Shown here: in pieces, positions 6,204 through 63,799 of the stretch
Layout: each line of letters starts with the position of its first letter
How positions within the stretch are numbered: the first letter of the stretch is position 1
DNA from: Methylocaldum marinum
GTDB lineage: Bacteria; Pseudomonadota; Gammaproteobacteria; Methylococcales; Methylococcaceae
Reading direction: 5' to 3'
Assembly: GCF_003584645.1 (NCBI RefSeq)
Contig: NZ_AP017928.1
Location: 1,080,981 to 1,144,980 of the forward strand
DNA: 64,000 nt
Position numbers and translations under genes: made by a program
Notes under the pieces: model-generated
Told to the model about the DNA's origin: nothing
The model's input: the letters and a program-made list of their open reading frames with translations, nothing else
Databases searched by the model: none

Positions 6204-7232
6204 TTACCCCCTCCTCTTGGTGGCTGCGATATGCAGGCGTGCAGGGGTGAGGATCAGGTGATCTTTCGTTTCCTCGATGTGGTTCCGAGCCTCGGGATAG
6301 AACAGCAGCGCTTCGTTTAGCCGGAGGCGGAAATTGGTCTTGAAGTTGGCCAGCCCCTTGGGAGTATTCGCATAGCCAGAGCCGAACTGCATCATCAGGC
6401 CAGTCCATGGCACGTGAACAAGCCGTTTGCCTCCTTTGCTTGCCCCAACGTTCAGGGTGAACATGCGGTAGACCAGCCATGTGTAGATGTCCATCGCCAA
6501 AGGCGACTTTATGAGCGCGCGTAGTGCCTCCATTTTGAGTGGCACGGGGGCACTGATCAGACGTTTAAAAAAGTCTGTGCTCAAGGTGATCGAGCTTTCC
6601 CATGCCCCTCGTCGCACCGTATCGCGAGAGCTCCAGAAGACGAACGCCTCCTCCGCGATGAGGATGTTTCTGACGTGCAGCGCATCGCCATCTGCACCAC
6701 CGACGGTAATCATCGAATGCACCAGCCGCAAGCTCTGGTCACGCACTCGCGCGATGTACCGGCCATCATTATGCAGATCGAGGCTTTGCAAGAATGCCGC
6801 CTGGGAACGCCCAAGCGATAGATCGGGACTACCTGTGCGAACGGCTTCAGTACACATCCACGCCAGCAGCAGGCGCGGCAGCCCGCCATACGGTACGCCA
6901 TAGTCGGGGTTGGCTACGATGGAAAGGCTCAGCTTGCCCGTGCCGCGTTTGAAATGGTTGGTCTTGGGGTCTGTATGAGGAAGCGTGGCCTGCGCCAGAA
7001 AGTGTGCGATGTAGCCTGTAGCGCCTGCGTTGCGGGCCTGCTCGATCTCCAGCTCCACAGCTTCGTCGATCAAGTAGCGCACCCGTGGAGTCAATGCATG
7101 GGCGGCGTCGTGCTGCTCCGCCTGCTTCACCACCTCGGTGGCATTCTGCCTGATCCGCTCCAGCGGATCGCGCTTGAGCGTGGCTTCTGCCACACCAGCG
7201 TCCAGCAAATTGCCCACGCTGCGCATCGCCAA
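6204..7232 (-). CDS. repA: Plasmid replication initiator RepA
   Basis: This 342-residue protein resembles plasmid RepA initiators of the RepA_C type. Telling segments are TGYIAHFLAQATLPHTDP, YGVPYGGLPRLLLAWM, and a C-terminal winged-helix-like part around LAMDIYTWLVYRM and FKTNFRLRLNEAL. These proteins bind iterons and load the host helicase. The gene ends 24 bp from the iteron array, and an AlpA-type regulator lies just upstream in the same orientation. Its presence among chromosomal genes suggests an integrated plasmid or a plasmid-derived island. The family assignment is from memory of motif patterns. Confidence 0.8.
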   Translation of the reverse strand: MAMRSVGNLLDAGVAEATLKRDPLERIRQNATEVVKQAEQHDAAHALTPRVRYLIDEAVELEIEQARNAGATGYIAHFLAQATLPHTDPKTNHFKRGTGKLSLSIVANPDYGVPYGGLPRLLLAWMCTEAVRTGSPDLSLGRSQAAFLQSLDLHNDGRYIARVRDQSLRLVHSMITVGGADGDALHVRNILIAEEAFVFWSSRDTVRRGAWESSITLSTDFFKRLISAPVPLKMEALRALIKSPLAMDIYTWLVYRMFTLNVGASKGGKRLVHVPWTGLMMQFGSGYANTPKGLANFKTNFRLRLNEALLFYPEARNHIEETKDHLILTPARLHIAATKRRG

Positions 7233-7264
7233 CTCCTGACCCTTGACCTGCGAGATCGCGGCGA

Positions 7265-7477
7265 TCAGGGATGGACAGCGTTGTTACTGGCAGTGCGGGC
7301 GGCAGCGGCCTTCTGTCCGAGCCAGGTATCAATCTCGTGCTCCAGCCATCCGACAACCCGCTTGTTGATCTGGATGCATACCGGGAATGTCGGATCATCG
7401 CGTGTGATCCGCCAGAGCGTTACGTCGTTGATACCGCCAAGCTTTTCGCAGACGGCCTTGCGGCGTAGAATTTTCAT
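7265..7477 (-). CDS. AlpA-family / excisionase-like DNA-binding protein
   Basis: This small 70-residue protein has a MerR-like HTH. It starts MKILRRKAVCEKLG, includes TLWRI and FPVCIQINKRVVGWLEHEIDTWL, the signature of AlpA phage-type regulators and excisionase-like factors. A GGAGG Shine-Dalgarno sits 8 nt before ATG 7477, favouring this start over an upstream one at 7495. It lies 32 bp upstream of repA on the same strand, so it may regulate repA or act in excision. No integrase gene is visible in the window. Confidence 0.8.
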   Translation of the reverse strand: MKILRRKAVCEKLGGINDVTLWRITRDDPTFPVCIQINKRVVGWLEHEIDTWLGQKAAAARTASNNAVHP

Positions 7478-7947
7478 CGTCCTCACCTCCTGCACATTGA
7501 AAGTCGATGCAGGAAGTTTCAGGTGACGACCCGGCAGCGGTCACGGATTCCCAGAAGGGAATTTTTGCAGCAAAAAATCCGACGGCTGCGATGCAGGACA
7601 GGCAAGCGATGCACGGGCCTCGCTCCGGGTAGCAGCGGCTAAAGTGTATATGGAAGTGACTACAAGATGAGTGGTGACAGAGACAATGCCGCCACCACAC
7701 ACGCATTCCTGTCAAACTTCCTGTTCAACGTCTGAACCAACACCTGCAAACCTGACGTCTGATACAAGATGCAAGGCGGACAGCGTTCGCTGAGCCGTTT
7801 CGTTGAAAGCGGTTTGGGAGCCACAACCGCTTTCAACCCTGCAAGCGCGAATTACAACAGATGGATATAATTTAACATAATATACATTATGCGCTATTAT
7901 GACAACCTTGCGATCGGGCGTTCCTGAACCGCCATCACGTTCATTTT
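7478..7947. other. Intergenic boundary region
   Basis: No convincing gene is seen in these 470 bp. Part of it is markedly AT-rich (about 7860-7900), and there is a short direct repeat of ACGTCTGA near 7730 and 7760. The region separates the plasmid-like block from the HvfABC-like cluster and may hold the element boundary. I could not find an obvious attachment-site duplication. Confidence 0.4.
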
Positions 7948-8706
7948 TTAGCTTGCCCCGATCACTCCACGCTCGGCCAGTGCTCGCAGAATCTCCGCGC
8001 CATGTTCCGCCAGCCCCTGAGACGAATACCCGATTTCCGTTGCCAATCTCTTCAAACACTCGGCAGCGGCTACAGAGCCCTCGTCTTCGAGAATCTGCAA
8101 TAGCCGGTAGGTAACCGGGCTGATTTCCAGGAATTTCACCGTGTCGGACATATCGCGATAGACAACCAGACACGTCGCCTGTTCAGGCGGTTCGCTCGGT
8201 TGCTGGTCTGGGCCGATCCGATGCACAGGAAACCGATAAGCCAAGGGCCAAGCAACCTCCGACAAGTGAATGGTTTGTCCCAGCGGGTCAGTGATCAAGT
8301 TGGCACTCGGGTCCGGTACCTCGCCTTCGGCGACGACCAAAGCCAACTCGGCCCATTCATAATGAGCTAGTTCCAGAAGGAAAGGCGGATCACCGGAATC
8401 AGGCTCGCGTTCATTCTGAAGATAATCGAGAAACTGTTCGCCAATTTCAGCGAAAAACGGCGTATTGCTCCGATGCGTGGCGTAAAAACCCTGAACTAAA
8501 GCGAACCAGTCGTTTTGATTCAGGATGCTTTTAGTCACCGGGAAACCGGTTGCCAGAAAATTCTCGATATTATTGAAAAACAATTCACGATAGACCTTCA
8601 TACGTTCCGGCGCCGGCCCACGCGGAGGCGGATTGTGATCGGGGTCACGGATATATGCGGCAAACGCAAATTGGATTTGCTGAAACGGAGGGACCTTTTC
8701 AGCCAT
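7948..8706 (-). CDS. HvfC/BufC-like DUF2063 partner protein
   Basis: This 252-residue protein carries the DUF2063 N-terminal domain (about residues 8-100, with the [23 protein letters not shown] segment) and a C-terminal domain of winged-helix type. Members of this family act as the recognition partner that brings the precursor peptide to the DUF692 (MNIO) enzyme. The start overlaps the end of the MNIO gene by 8 bp, so the two are translationally coupled. The order precursor-MNIO-partner matches HvfABC and bufferin operons. It acts in the cytoplasm before export of the modified peptide. Confidence 0.85.
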
Positions 8707-9544
8707 ATTTTCGGACGGGTTCGAATGCAGTCGTTGATTGAAGCAAACGAATCCGTTCTACTTCAGTTAGAAGTTCCGCTAAAGGAGGAATATTGAAATC
8801 CCTCTCTAGGAGAGTTGGGAATACGCCAAACCGCTCGTATGCCCTGCTCAGTAATCGCCAAACCGGATCGATGACGGTTGCGCCGTGTGTATCGACCAGA
8901 AAATCAGCTGCTTCGACATAATGACCAGCGACGTGGGCGTAGGCAATGCGGTGTCCGGGAATTGCGGCTAGAAAACTCTCGGCATCATAGCCATGATTAA
9001 CGCTATTGACATAAATATTGTTGATGTCGAGCAGCAGATCGCAATCGGCTTCTTCAAGTACTGCGTTGAGAAAATCGATTTCCTCGAGCTCCTTACCTGG
9101 CGCGGCATAATAGGAAATATTTTCGATGGCTATCCGCCGCTCCAAAATCTCTTGAGTCCTGATAATGCGGTCGGCAGTATATTCGACCGCTTCGGCCGTG
9201 AACGGAATAGGCATGAGGTCATACAGATGACCGTCATCGCTACAGTAGCTCAGATGCTCGCTGTACAGGCGAATGTGATGTTGATCGAGAAACGATTTGA
9301 GTTCGCTCAGAAATGCCTCGTCAAGCGGCGCGGGACTGCCGAGCGACAAAGACAAACCGTGGCAGACAAAGGGAAATCGGTCGGTCAGGGAACGAAACTG
9401 TTTGCCAAGTCTTCCCCCAATCCTGATCCAGTTTTCCGGCGCGATCTCGTAAAAATCGACCGATTCCGGTAGGTGCTCGGTGAGCGGGCCTATGAAGGCC
9501 CGCCTAAGTCCAAGTCCGGCACCTTGAACGGCGTATTTCTTCAT
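8699..9544 (-). CDS. MNIO (DUF692) peptide-modifying iron enzyme, HvfB/BufB-like
   Basis: This 281-residue DUF692 TIM-barrel enzyme belongs to the multinuclear non-heme iron oxidative enzymes. Expected metal ligands are visible: H62 ([10 protein letters not shown]), E96/H97 (YSEHLSY), E141, D173 ([10 protein letters not shown]), H184, H204/H208 (YAHVAGH), D218/H220 (DTHG) and E247. Characterised relatives convert cysteines in precursor peptides to oxazolone-thioamide or related groups that bind copper. The adjacent precursor has EGKCG-type motifs, pointing to the HvfB-type reaction. It is coupled to the DUF2063 partner by an 8-bp overlap. Confidence 0.9.
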
Positions 9545-9573
9545 GTCGCAAGGTTCCGGCGATAAACAAGTGC

Positions 9574-9897
9574 TTATTCCGCTTTCTTGTCTGCGTCAGC
9601 CGGCTGTTCTTTGTCCGATTTCATTCCGGCACATTTGCCTTCCATTGCCTTCTTGTCCTGTTCCTGGCTATTCTGTTTCATGGCCCCGCAATTCATTTCC
9701 GGATTTTTCATCATCTGGCCACCGCATTTCCCTTCACCGCAGACCATTTCCTTCTGTTCTTTTCCGGCTTCAGCGACCTGCAGGTAGCCATTGTCCAAGT
9801 CTTTAATTCCAAACGGATTTTCAGACGCATTAGCGACAGCGGAGAAGGATGTTACGACAGCAGCTCCCATTACGGTTTTAAGTACTCTTTTACTCAT
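9574..9897 (-). CDS. HvfA/BufA2-like RiPP precursor with EGKC motifs
   Basis: This 107-residue protein has a Sec-type signal peptide (residues 1-24, cleavage near VANA|SEN) and a hydrophilic, Lys/Glu-rich mature part with four cysteines (C53, C58, C70, C89). EGKCG occurs at 55-59 and EGKCA at 86-90. EGKCG is the motif where HvfB-type MNIO enzymes install copper-binding oxazolone-thioamide groups. The gene lies 29 bp upstream of the MNIO gene. A periplasmic or secreted copper-binding modified peptide is the likely product; the second, degenerate motif may or may not be modified. Confidence 0.85.
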
Positions 9898-10197
9898 TGT
9901 CTCTTATTCCTCTCAATCGATAGCGATTTGTCGAGCGCTATGCGCGCGAAACTGATTAGACCTAGAAATTCAACAAAGTTGCCGGTTATCCGTTAGGACG
10001 ACACATGTGGAGACGTCACTTTCGCACCACCCTTTGTCAAGGCTGCTATTTTCACACATTAACCGGGAATTGTGGACTCCATAGGCGTGAATCCCCTTTT
10101 TCGTCCCGCCTGGACAGCAGAAACCGGTATTCTCTCGTGCTCATTCTTGCCGAAGTTTCAACATAACCTATCAGAACCGCAGTCTGAAGTTAAATCA
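9898..10197. other. Intergenic region upstream of the RiPP precursor
   Basis: This 300-bp stretch between the precursor start and the IS200-type element holds no gene I can support. The precursor promoter must lie here on the minus strand. I did not find a recognisable CueR, CopR or Fur operator by eye. Confidence 0.35.
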
Positions 10198-10800
10198 CCC
10201 CCGGCAAAGCCGGGGGCTTATTGGGTGAGCGCCTCGAAGGCGCCGTAAAATCATGAGCCGCCCAAGGCGGCTGTTTACAGGCCCAGCTTCATCTGGTCAA
10301 TACGCTCATCCTCCTGTTCCTGATGGCGGATATACGCCCGAACCATAGCCTCATCCAAACCCACCGTGGACACAAAATATCCCCTCGCCCAGAAATTCTC
10401 CCCGGTGAAGTTCCTCTGCCGCCCCCCAAACTGCCGGGCGATTTGGATCGCACTCTTACCCTTGATGTAGCCCACCACGTTCGAAATCGCATACTTCGGC
10501 GGAATGCTGATACACATATGAACGTGGTCGCCCATCAGGTGACCTTCTACTATTTTCGATTCCTTGTGCCCGGCAAGCTCATGAAATATCTCTCCATGAT
10601 GCCGCTTGAGCGCACCAAAAATCTGTTTCTTCCGCCGCTTCGGGATGAACACCACATGATACTTACAATCCCACCGGGTGTGGGAAAGACTCTGGTACTC
10701 TTTCATTGTGAACCTCCTTCTCTTGGTCGAGATTTCAGGTTCACGATGACCGTTGTACAGGTCAAACCTCGGTGAGTCCCCCGGCAAAGCCGGGGGCTTA
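10198..10800 (-). mobile_element. IS200-type insertion sequence
   Basis: A single tnpA-type transposase gene lies between two identical 23-nt sequences (10198-10220 and 10778-10800), each a hairpin with 8-bp stem (CCCCCGGC/GCCGGGGG, loop AAA) followed by CTTA. IS200/IS605 elements have hairpin ends, no inverted terminal repeats, and move as single strands. A further palindrome-rich segment (10226-10270) lies between the left hairpin and the gene. The exact cleavage sites are not determined. No tnpB gene accompanies it. Confidence 0.75.
10275..10706 (-). CDS. tnpA: IS200-family HUH transposase TnpA
   Basis: This 143-residue Y1 transposase looks complete. The pattern CKYHVVFIPKRRKK, the HUH pair H61/H63 (GDHVHMCISIPP) and the catalytic Tyr (Y125, VRAYIRHQE) are all present. 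ATG 10706 gives the normal N-terminus for the family; an upstream in-frame start at 10787 would read through the hairpin end and is rejected. The element lies between the RiPP cluster and a zinc-ribbon protein gene and interrupts no visible gene. Confidence 0.92.
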   Translation of the reverse strand: MKEYQSLSHTRWDCKYHVVFIPKRRKKQIFGALKRHHGEIFHELAGHKESKIVEGHLMGDHVHMCISIPPKYAISNVVGYIKGKSAIQIARQFGGRQRNFTGENFWARGYFVSTVGLDEAMVRAYIRHQEQEDERIDQMKLGL

Positions 10801-28084: not shown

Positions 28085-29596
28085 TTACGCCCCGGGCAGC
28101 TTGCAGTTGTGAGGAAGCAGGCTGTCGATGTCCTTCTGCTTGGTGGAAGGCAGGCGGTTGAGGACATCCTTCAGATAGGCCTCCGGATTGATGCCCAGCT
28201 CCTTGCAGGTCTGGATCAGGCTGAAGACGGTGGCGGCGACCTGGCCGCCCTTGGGCGAGCCGAGGAACAGCCAGTTCTTGCGGCCGATGGTCAGCGGGCG
28301 GATGGCCCGTTCGCTCCGGTTGTTGTCGATCTCCAGGCGACCGTCTTCGGTATAGCGCTCCAGCGCCGGCCAGTTCTTGAGGGCATAGCCGATGGCCTGG
28401 GCAGTGGGGGTCTTGGGCGCCAGCTGGCGCAGCCGGTCTTCGAGCCAGGCCTTGAACTCGGCCAGGATCGGCCGCGCCTGTTCCTGCCGTAGCTTTCGGG
28501 TGCCTTCGGCGTCGAGTTGCTGTTCTTTGGCCTCCCGTTCGATGGCGTAGAGCCGGCCGATGTACTCCAAGGCCTCATGGGCGCTGATGCGCTTGCCGTT
28601 CTCGGTCTGTCGGGCAATCTCGAAGAACTTGCGGCGCGCATGCGCCCAGCACGCCACTTCCAGGACCTTGCCCGCGGCGAAGATCTGGTCGTAACCGGCA
28701 TAGGCGTCCGCCTGCAGGTAGCCGCTGTAGCCTTCCAGTTTGGCCTTGGGATGCTTGCCCGCCCGGGTTTCGGTGTGGTCATAGACGACGATGGGCGGCG
28801 AGTGGCCGGCGTATACCCAAAACCGGGTTTCCCGCGTCTTGCCGCGGTCCTGCACCGCCACAGTGGTGTCGTCCGAGAAGATCACCGGCTGTTGCTTGAG
28901 CAACGCCAGCATCCGCTCGACCAAGGGCTGCAGCTGCCAGCCGCTCTGGATGACCCAGTCGCACAACGTGGTGCGGGCAATGGGGACACCCTGGTGGGCA
29001 AAGATTTGCTCGATGCGGTACAGCGGCAGGTGATAGCCGTATTTGGCCATCAGCAGATGTGCCAGAAGACCCGGCAGAGGGATGCCCTGCTCGATGATTT
29101 GCGGCGGGGCCGGTACCGTGGTCAACTGCCCTTGGCACTTCGCGCAGGCGCACTTTTCCCGCCGCGTTTCCACGACCTTCAGTTGCGCCGGGACGTAATC
29201 CAAGCGTTCGGAGCTTTCGTAGCCGATCACCGGCCGTTCCTCACCGCAGGCAGGACACTGCCGGTCTTGTGCCGACAACGGCAATACCACGATCTCTCGC
29301 GGCAGATGCGCCGGCAGTGCGGTGCGCTTCGGTTGATTCTTGGCGGGCGATTGCACCACCACCGTCTTGAACGCCACCGGACTGGCGACGGGGGCGTCCT
29401 CGGGCACCTCATCCCACAGCGGCAGTTGGTCGATGTCGGGGAGGGTCGCCAGTCGCTCGGAACGGGCGCCGAACAGCAGCTTCTTCAGCTGCGCCAGGTC
29501 GAATTCCAGCCGTTCGATGCGCGCCTCGCGCTGGGCCAGGGTGGCCTTTAGAGTACGATTTTCTTCGGCGAGAGCGGCGGCATTCATGGCTGCCAT
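28085..29596 (-). CDS. tnpC: IS66 family transposase TnpC
   Basis: This roughly 503-residue DDE transposase has an N-terminal coiled leucine-rich region (LAQREARIERLEFDLAQLKKLLFG), a zinc-binding part (CPACGEE and CACAKC) and the IS66 catalytic core (FSDDTTVAVQD, LQADAYAGYDQIF, NNRSERAIRPLTIGRKNWLF). The start is one of two nearby ATGs (29596 or 29587); a further upstream start at 29647 is less likely. It is intact. The last 28 residues differ from those of the second copy at 62288. Confidence 0.93.
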   Translation of the reverse strand: MAAMNAAALAEENRTLKATLAQREARIERLEFDLAQLKKLLFGARSERLATLPDIDQLPLWDEVPEDAPVASPVAFKTVVVQSPAKNQPKRTALPAHLPREIVVLPLSAQDRQCPACGEERPVIGYESSERLDYVPAQLKVVETRREKCACAKCQGQLTTVPAPPQIIEQGIPLPGLLAHLLMAKYGYHLPLYRIEQIFAHQGVPIARTTLCDWVIQSGWQLQPLVERMLALLKQQPVIFSDDTTVAVQDRGKTRETRFWVYAGHSPPIVVYDHTETRAGKHPKAKLEGYSGYLQADAYAGYDQIFAAGKVLEVACWAHARRKFFEIARQTENGKRISAHEALEYIGRLYAIEREAKEQQLDAEGTRKLRQEQARPILAEFKAWLEDRLRQLAPKTPTAQAIGYALKNWPALERYTEDGRLEIDNNRSERAIRPLTIGRKNWLFLGSPKGGQVAATVFSLIQTCKELGINPEAYLKDVLNRLPSTKQKDIDSLLPHNCKLPGA

Positions 29597-29654
29597 TATA
29601 CCCGGTGGACCACCCGAAAGCCCAGCTCTGATGCGGGTTTCAGGCACTTTCGAC

Positions 29655-62229: not shown

Positions 62230-62287
62230 GTCGAAAGTGCCTGAAACCCGCATCAGAGCTGGGCTTTCGGGTGGTCCACCGGGTATA

Positions 62288-63799
62288 ATGGCAGCCATGA
62301 ATGCCGCCGCTCTCGCCGAAGAAAATCGTACTCTAAAGGCCACCCTGGCCCAGCGCGAGGCGCGCATCGAACGGCTGGAATTCGACCTGGCGCAGCTGAA
62401 GAAGCTGCTGTTCGGCGCCCGTTCCGAGCGACTGGCGACCCTCCCCGACATCGACCAACTGCCGCTGTGGGATGAGGTGCCCGAGGACGCCCCCGTCGCC
62501 AGTCCGGTGGCGTTCAAGACGGTGGTGGTGCAATCGCCCGCCAAGAATCAACCGAAGCGCACCGCACTGCCGGCGCATCTGCCGCGAGAGATCGTGGTAT
62601 TGCCGTTGTCGGCACAAGACCGGCAGTGTCCTGCCTGCGGTGAGGAACGGCCGGTGATCGGCTACGAAAGCTCCGAACGCTTGGATTACGTCCCGGCGCA
62701 ACTGAAGGTCGTGGAAACGCGGCGGGAAAAGTGCGCCTGCGCGAAGTGCCAAGGGCAGTTGACCACGGTACCGGCCCCGCCGCAAATCATCGAGCAGGGC
62801 ATCCCTCTGCCGGGTCTTCTGGCACATCTGCTGATGGCCAAATACGGCTATCACCTGCCGCTGTACCGCATCGAGCAAATCTTTGCCCACCAGGGTGTCC
62901 CCATTGCCCGCACCACGTTGTGCGACTGGGTCATCCAGAGCGGCTGGCAGCTGCAGCCCTTGGTCGAGCGGATGCTGGCGTTGCTCAAGCAACAGCCGGT
63001 GATCTTCTCGGACGACACCACTGTGGCGGTGCAGGACCGCGGCAAGACGCGGGAAACCCGGTTTTGGGTATACGCCGGCCACTCGCCGCCCATCGTCGTC
63101 TATGACCACACCGAAACCCGGGCGGGCAAGCATCCCAAGGCCAAACTGGAAGGCTACAGCGGCTACCTGCAGGCGGACGCCTATGCCGGTTACGACCAGA
63201 TCTTCGCCGCAGGCAAGGTCCTGGAAGTGGCGTGCTGGGCGCATGCGCGCCGCAAGTTCTTCGAGATTGCCCGACAGACCGAGAACGGCAAGCGCATCAG
63301 CGCCCATGAGGCCTTGGAGTACATCGGCCGGCTCTACGCCATCGAACGGGAGGCCAAGGAACAGCAACTCGACGCCGAAGGCACCCGAAAGCTACGGCAG
63401 GAACAGGCGCGGCCGATCCTGGCCGAGTTCAAGGCCTGGCTCGAAGACCGGCTGCGCCAGCTGGCGCCCAAGACCCCCACTGCCCAGGCCATCGGCTATG
63501 CCCTCAAGAACTGGCCGGCGCTGGAGCGCTATACCGAAGACGGTCGCCTGGAGATCGACAACAACCGCAGTGAGCGGGCGATCCGCCCCCTCACCATCGG
63601 CCGCAAGAACTGGCTGTTCCTCGGCTCGCCCAAGGGCGGCCAGGTCGCCGCCACGGTGTTCAGCCTCATCCAAACCTGCAAGGAACTCGACCTCAACCCA
63701 GAGGCCTACCTGAAAGACGTCCTGACCCGTTTACCCACCACCAAGCAGAGGGAGATCGACAGCCTGCTACCCCACAACTGGAAACCAGCCAACGTATAA
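62288..63799 (+). CDS. tnpC: IS66 family transposase TnpC, copy 2
   Basis: This roughly 503-residue DDE transposase is nearly identical to copy 1 through the catalytic core. Its C-terminus departs (KELDLNPEAYLKDVLTRLP...HNWKPANV against KELGINPEAYLKDVLNRLP...HNCKLPGA), matching the DNA breakpoint near 63565. The frame is open and all IS66 motifs are present, so it may be functional. The start may be 62288 or 62297. Confidence 0.92.
   Translation: MAAMNAAALAEENRTLKATLAQREARIERLEFDLAQLKKLLFGARSERLATLPDIDQLPLWDEVPEDAPVASPVAFKTVVVQSPAKNQPKRTALPAHLPREIVVLPLSAQDRQCPACGEERPVIGYESSERLDYVPAQLKVVETRREKCACAKCQGQLTTVPAPPQIIEQGIPLPGLLAHLLMAKYGYHLPLYRIEQIFAHQGVPIARTTLCDWVIQSGWQLQPLVERMLALLKQQPVIFSDDTTVAVQDRGKTRETRFWVYAGHSPPIVVYDHTETRAGKHPKAKLEGYSGYLQADAYAGYDQIFAAGKVLEVACWAHARRKFFEIARQTENGKRISAHEALEYIGRLYAIEREAKEQQLDAEGTRKLRQEQARPILAEFKAWLEDRLRQLAPKTPTAQAIGYALKNWPALERYTEDGRLEIDNNRSERAIRPLTIGRKNWLFLGSPKGGQVAATVFSLIQTCKELDLNPEAYLKDVLTRLPTTKQREIDSLLPHNWKPANV

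Follow-up and report, generated by a model that had tools for sequence, protein, structure and literature searches.

Does a three-gene cluster of Methylocaldum marinum, whose precursor carries a single exact EGKCG motif, produce a copper-binding peptide of the HvfABC kind, and what sort of peptide would this be? The genes hvfA, hvfB and hvfC lie in this order at 7948-9897 on the minus strand of the window, i.e. the whole stretch of 64,000 nucleotides analyzed (1.08-1.14 Mb of the genome). The precursor HvfA (107 aa) is encoded at 9574..9897, the MNIO enzyme HvfB (PF05114, 281 aa) at 8699..9544 and HvfC (252 aa), a DUF2063/NGO1945-type partner with an RRE, at 7948..8706. Open reading frames, strand and coordinates agree with the original prediction, as does the 8-bp overlap of hvfB and hvfC (8699-8706). 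All three genes were matched by family models. HvfB scores 438 bits against the NCBIfam equivalog NF003818 (cut-off 360) and resembles the solved MNIO 3BWW (E 3.9e-73); HvfC scores 301 bits against the equivalog NF050145 (cut-off 142) and resembles the DUF2063 protein 3DEE (E 7.4e-11). For HvfA the models give a mixed answer: it reaches 25.3 bits with NF050137, a 29-position domain model (cut-off 19.5), and only 17 bits with the full-length equivalog NF050188 (cut-off 95), a cut-off which is narrow because a repeat-bearing control of the family also stays below it (47.8). Clade conservation and dN/dS further support the hvfA call.

The genomic context was then considered. The genome (one contig, 6.09 Mb) contains no second MNIO and no second HvfC; it has two pmoA copies and the host is therefore a methanotroph. 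In three genus mates the operon adjoins the same zinc-ribbon gene, response regulator, orn and M48 protease, and hvfB is present in all but 2 of 61 relatives. Among genus mates purifying selection acts on hvfA, with dN/dS of 0.05-0.14 and a core under tighter constraint than the tail. Family matches, selection and shared neighbours thus show that the cluster is more than a chance assembly. Two elements are peculiar to the flanks of the host genome and missing from the matching places in the three genus mates: an IS200/IS605-type transposase gene between hvfA and the zinc-ribbon gene (10275-10787, minus strand), and a mobile-element module beside hvfC, made of an AlpA-type regulator followed by a RepA_C gene (6204-7495, minus strand). 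Elsewhere in the window, two 520-aa open reading frames of opposite orientation (28085-29647, minus; 62237-63799, plus) with the same 344-aa antisense frame probably represent a single insertion sequence present twice. No RNA element was found at the locus by Rfam, and no transporter or pmo gene adjoins hvfABC. As had been claimed, no DoxX gene is adjacent. The two DoxX genes of the genome, at 3.55 and 5.64 Mb, were rejected as HvfD, both being beside unrelated genes. A sequence search of the stretches surrounding 39 other HvfB loci of the order detected no DoxX either, and the fon cluster of Fontimonas thermophila consists only of A, B and C (PMC13097082), so that this absence is normal for such clusters. 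Across HvfABC systems a DoxX-like fourth gene is common without being required.

The precursor was examined residue by residue; column counts refer to 34 related precursors described below. Its predicted Sec-type signal peptide (residues 1-24; 9826..9897, minus strand like all precursor features) was judged by eye from a K/R n-region, a hydrophobic stretch and A-N-A; it ends ...ANA/SENPF, and A24 is found in 34/34. A leader-like segment follows, ENPFxxKDLxxGYxQVAE (residues 26-43; 9769..9822), with N27, P28, F29 and G37 in 34/34 and Y38 in 33/34; its residues are invariant in distant precursors too, and HvfC probably binds it. One EGKCG (C58), one EGKCA (C89) and two other cysteines had been reported behind a Sec-type N-terminus, which we confirm. 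The two others, at positions 53 and 70, lie in EMVCG and EMNCG, and all four cysteines are thus within E-x-x-C-[GA] five-mers: where two motifs and one or two modifications had been proposed, we count four candidate sites. Site 1 (EMVCG, 9736..9750; C53 column 21/34) and site 2 (EGKCG, 9721..9735; Cys and Gly each 34/34) are spaced by 5 residues and form a tandem pair, Val replacing Lys in its first half; the full EGKCG five-mer of site 2 is missing in several lineages of the clade. Site 3 is EMNCG (9685..9699; C70 32/34). Site 4, EGKCA (9628..9642), is followed by GM, and K83, E86, K88, C89 and A90 are invariant (34/34), with G91 in 33/34 and M92 in 32/34. EGKCA, originally taken as a degenerate motif, is in fact conserved more strongly than any other core site in the clade precursors. 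A structure model of HvfA gave no fold (mean pLDDT 49; with a 10-row alignment, weak evidence of disorder), which is compatible with a flexible metal-binding peptide.

To place this layout among relatives, HvfB loci were gathered from 61 related genomes and from the best 80 matches in GTDB species genomes, the non-Methylococcales set being these nearest matches rather than a random draw; precursors were read beside the loci, and a tree was built from 113 HvfB sequences. Precursors were retained with at least one KCG plus two C[GA], or with two xC[GA] plus NPF/SPF/GY, a filter that misses precursors which diverge strongly. The 34 distinct precursors of what we call the KCA type, a label set after the sequences had been seen and covering related rows that are not independent, all belong to the host's GTDB family or to its named member Candidatus Methylumidiphilus. 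Exactly one Cys-Ala site is present in 33 of them and two in the remaining one. EGKCG accounts for 20 of 121 sites in this clade (17%), 88/225 in other Methylococcales and 300/351 outside the order (85%); for Cys-Ala the shares are 35/121, 26/225 and 2/351, respectively. Since Cys-Ala sites (EGACAG, EGKCAG) are frequent in other Methylococcales, the trait may be older within methanotrophs. A DNA scan for EGKCAGM agrees with this picture: of 251 genomes in the order 28 matched, the host's family contributing 25 and a single other genus 3. When 369 genomes sampled across the class were scanned, matches were confined to the two that belong to the host's family. The unconstrained tree shows a single origin of the clade in 59% of bootstraps, and one origin is not rejected because the tree in which the clade is held together has a higher likelihood than the free one. 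The site layout is kept in at least a dozen genera. A layout of three or four sites replacing the usual repeats is a lineage-specific trait of this family.

Several neighbouring cases were noted in this survey. In two genomes of one genus (loci L188 and L189) a precursor of the same layout is encoded away from the genome's nearest hvfB match, which suggests modification in trans. Second, divergent MNIO clusters occur in the same family (L152, L153 and L155), with precursors rich in EGGCS/EGGCN sites, i.e. with Ser or Asn after Cys. In the L038 precursor, EGKCG blocks are separated by an EF-hand-like stretch (DADGDGSITKEEF), which resembles the EF-hand fusions of PMC12452194.

Upstream of hvfA a candidate promoter, CAACTT-N14-GTCTAA, lies at 9956..9981 on the minus strand, 59-84 bp before the start. 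It resembles the sigma-E consensus, GGAACTT-N15-GTCTAA. A CTT-N-GTCTAA site was found 69-111 bp before the start in 15/34 clade members, a count inflated by kinship of the sequences, compared to a mean of 0.15 and a maximum of 2 in mononucleotide shuffles, and in none of 79 others outside the clade. A sigma-E-like promoter possibly drives hvfABC.

On the enzyme side, the expected metal ligands of HvfB are all present as predicted: H62, H97, E141, D173, N175/N176, H204, D218, H220 and E247 are each found in 113/113 relatives, the assignment being by motif match to the VcMbnB list (PMC8888699) and not by structure-based superposition. In FonB, two Arg, Asp249 and Phe250 were reported as substrate contacts (PMC13097082). 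The corresponding R14, R15, D249 and F250 of HvfB are the same inside the clade as in the remaining family, and the catalytic Asp, matching FonB D249, is present. A co-evolved change of the enzyme was sought and rejected at the published contact positions: the clade is set apart only at positions 40, 41 and 81, none of them a known contact. So it is the substrate that changed, the known contacts of HvfB staying the same.

The chemistry to be expected comes from the relatives. Oxazolone-thioamide groups, initially cited for these, are outdated: in PMC13097082 alkylation-assisted NMR established 5-thiooxazoles in fontiphorin, oxazolin and gonophorin, for which copper binding is reported as well, and the oxazolin group concurs with the revised structure (PMC13419390). 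We infer the following course for the chemistry at each Cys, export, copper binding and physiological role. HvfA would be synthesised in the cytoplasm and held by HvfC via the leader-like segment; the mixed-valent iron enzyme HvfB would oxidise Cys of the E-x-x-C-[G/A] five-mers to 5-thiooxazoles with loss of 4 H each. C53 and C58 would form a tandem pair of the sort that such enzymes process well, and C70 and C89 would probably be converted too, giving 2-4 rings. The modified peptide would then be exported by Sec, bind Cu(I) and buffer copper in the methanotroph periplasm. In PMC13097082, FonBC accepted EAKCAEGKCA, with Ala after Cys in both repeats, and introduced one modification into an NVCGG substrate; a relative thus tolerates Ala after Cys as well as Val in front of it, and by analogy HvfB may behave likewise. 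In our opinion it is likely that hvfABC produces a copper-binding captophorin which buffers periplasmic copper and belongs to a non-repetitive type specific to the lineage. The HvfB and HvfC equivalog matches, the sole MNIO and HvfC, the conserved ligands and contacts, the selected layout and the two pmoA copies count for it. Against it count the isolation of C70 and C89, FonBC having left a minimal single-repeat peptide unmodified and modified a double repeat (PMC13097082), and the NF050188 score. A copper-protective role is moreover disputed even for the canonical relative bulbicupramide (PMC12538549).

The HvfABC/captophorin kind is already known, and the non-repetitive lineage form is a variant of it. 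The oxazolin cluster of Haemophilus influenzae has the same A-B-C order, signal peptide, MNIO, DUF2063/RRE partner and EGKCG core, but its HvfA contains three AEGKCGEGKCG cassettes (six Cys) and the cluster a DoxX-like gene (PMC13419390), whereas the four sites of the host HvfA are not repeats, Ala follows Cys in one of them, and the cluster lacks DoxX. FonABC, of the captophorin class, shares the minimal ABC set without DoxX and the same enzyme contact residues; fontiphorin, however, has seven EGKCG-type sites, all modified (PMC13097082), compared to the low EGKCG share of the host family. MmrABC of Microbulbifer likewise combines an exported EGKCG-type precursor, an MNIO and DUF2063 to make the copper binder bulbicupramide, but the five to eight Cys of that precursor come in repeats (PMC12538549). 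Methanobactin (MbnABC) also involves an MNIO, a methanotroph setting and copper, but its MbnC-type partner is absent here, and presumably its oxazolone/thioamide chemistry too; this candidate was rejected, the MbnB model giving 41.7 bits (cut-off 325) with no other MNIO in the genome. We found no literature on such a cluster in methanotrophs, most subscription journals lying outside the search.

Among other explanations, the bufferin half of the original prediction did not stand. Bufferins (BufABC, DUF2282 or Buf2) likewise rely on an MNIO and PME1 chemistry and concern periplasmic copper, and the MNIO_BufB model does give 265 bits; this score is nevertheless below its cut-off of 310 whereas the HvfB cut-off is exceeded by 78 bits, the precursor family differs, a search for the DUF2282 precursor of Buf1 found none in the genome, and the KC-type motifs with Phe250 fit the Lys-Cys group (PMC13097082). 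A bufferin cluster is thus largely refuted and very improbable. Even harder to believe is that the cluster is decaying and motifs are being lost from the precursor: the single canonical EGKCG and the flanking IS and AlpA/RepA elements could suggest it, but the dN/dS values refute it, and the genes are intact, the layout is kept across genera and hvfB is nearly universal among the relatives.

Two further readings concern what the peptide does. The Cys-Ala site C89 could be left as a free thiol, or react slowly, the thiooxazoles and one thiolate, perhaps with the neighbouring Met, making a defined Cu(I) site. The constancy of one such site per precursor, of A90 and of M92 fits this, the residue after Cys is the most selective position of FonB (PMC13097082), and C89 is isolated as was the lone repeat that FonBC left unmodified. 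Two points argue against it: FonBC processed a substrate in which position 5 was Ala in each repeat (PMC13097082), and enzyme position 250, which contacts position 5, is unchanged. We hold this reading to be rather unlikely. Equally doubtful is a peptide for copper supply, i.e. storage or hand-over to particulate methane monooxygenase, rather than for detoxification. The special layout tracks one methanotroph family, and the host has its pmoA copies and, with no MNIO besides HvfB, lacks an MbnB-type methanobactin enzyme; but genes of this type are also found in many bacteria that have no pMMO, neither a transporter nor a pmo gene adjoins the cluster, the promoter candidate points to stress, and lineage-specificity may reflect descent only. 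More speculative, and improbable as a whole, is the idea that in one methanotroph family the usual polydisperse repeat "copper sponge" turned into a peptide with 3-4 fixed and distinct positions. In it the invariant Cys-Ala-Gly-Met site would serve a separate purpose, as a free thiolate/Met ligand, as a processing stop or in docking, and a defined copper stoichiometry would be tied to the copper supply of pMMO.

The preferred reading, a non-repetitive captophorin, bears on a very abundant class whose tested EGKCG members are repeats with every Cys alike. The subtype is under-annotated because current HvfA models partly miss it. In a natural subtype with few, distinguishable sites, one could read site by site in what order they are modified, whether a tandem pair is needed, how the residue following Cys matters and what the copper stoichiometry is. 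The cluster also prompts the question whether methanotrophs without methanobactin enzymes have a copper peptide of the thiooxazole kind.
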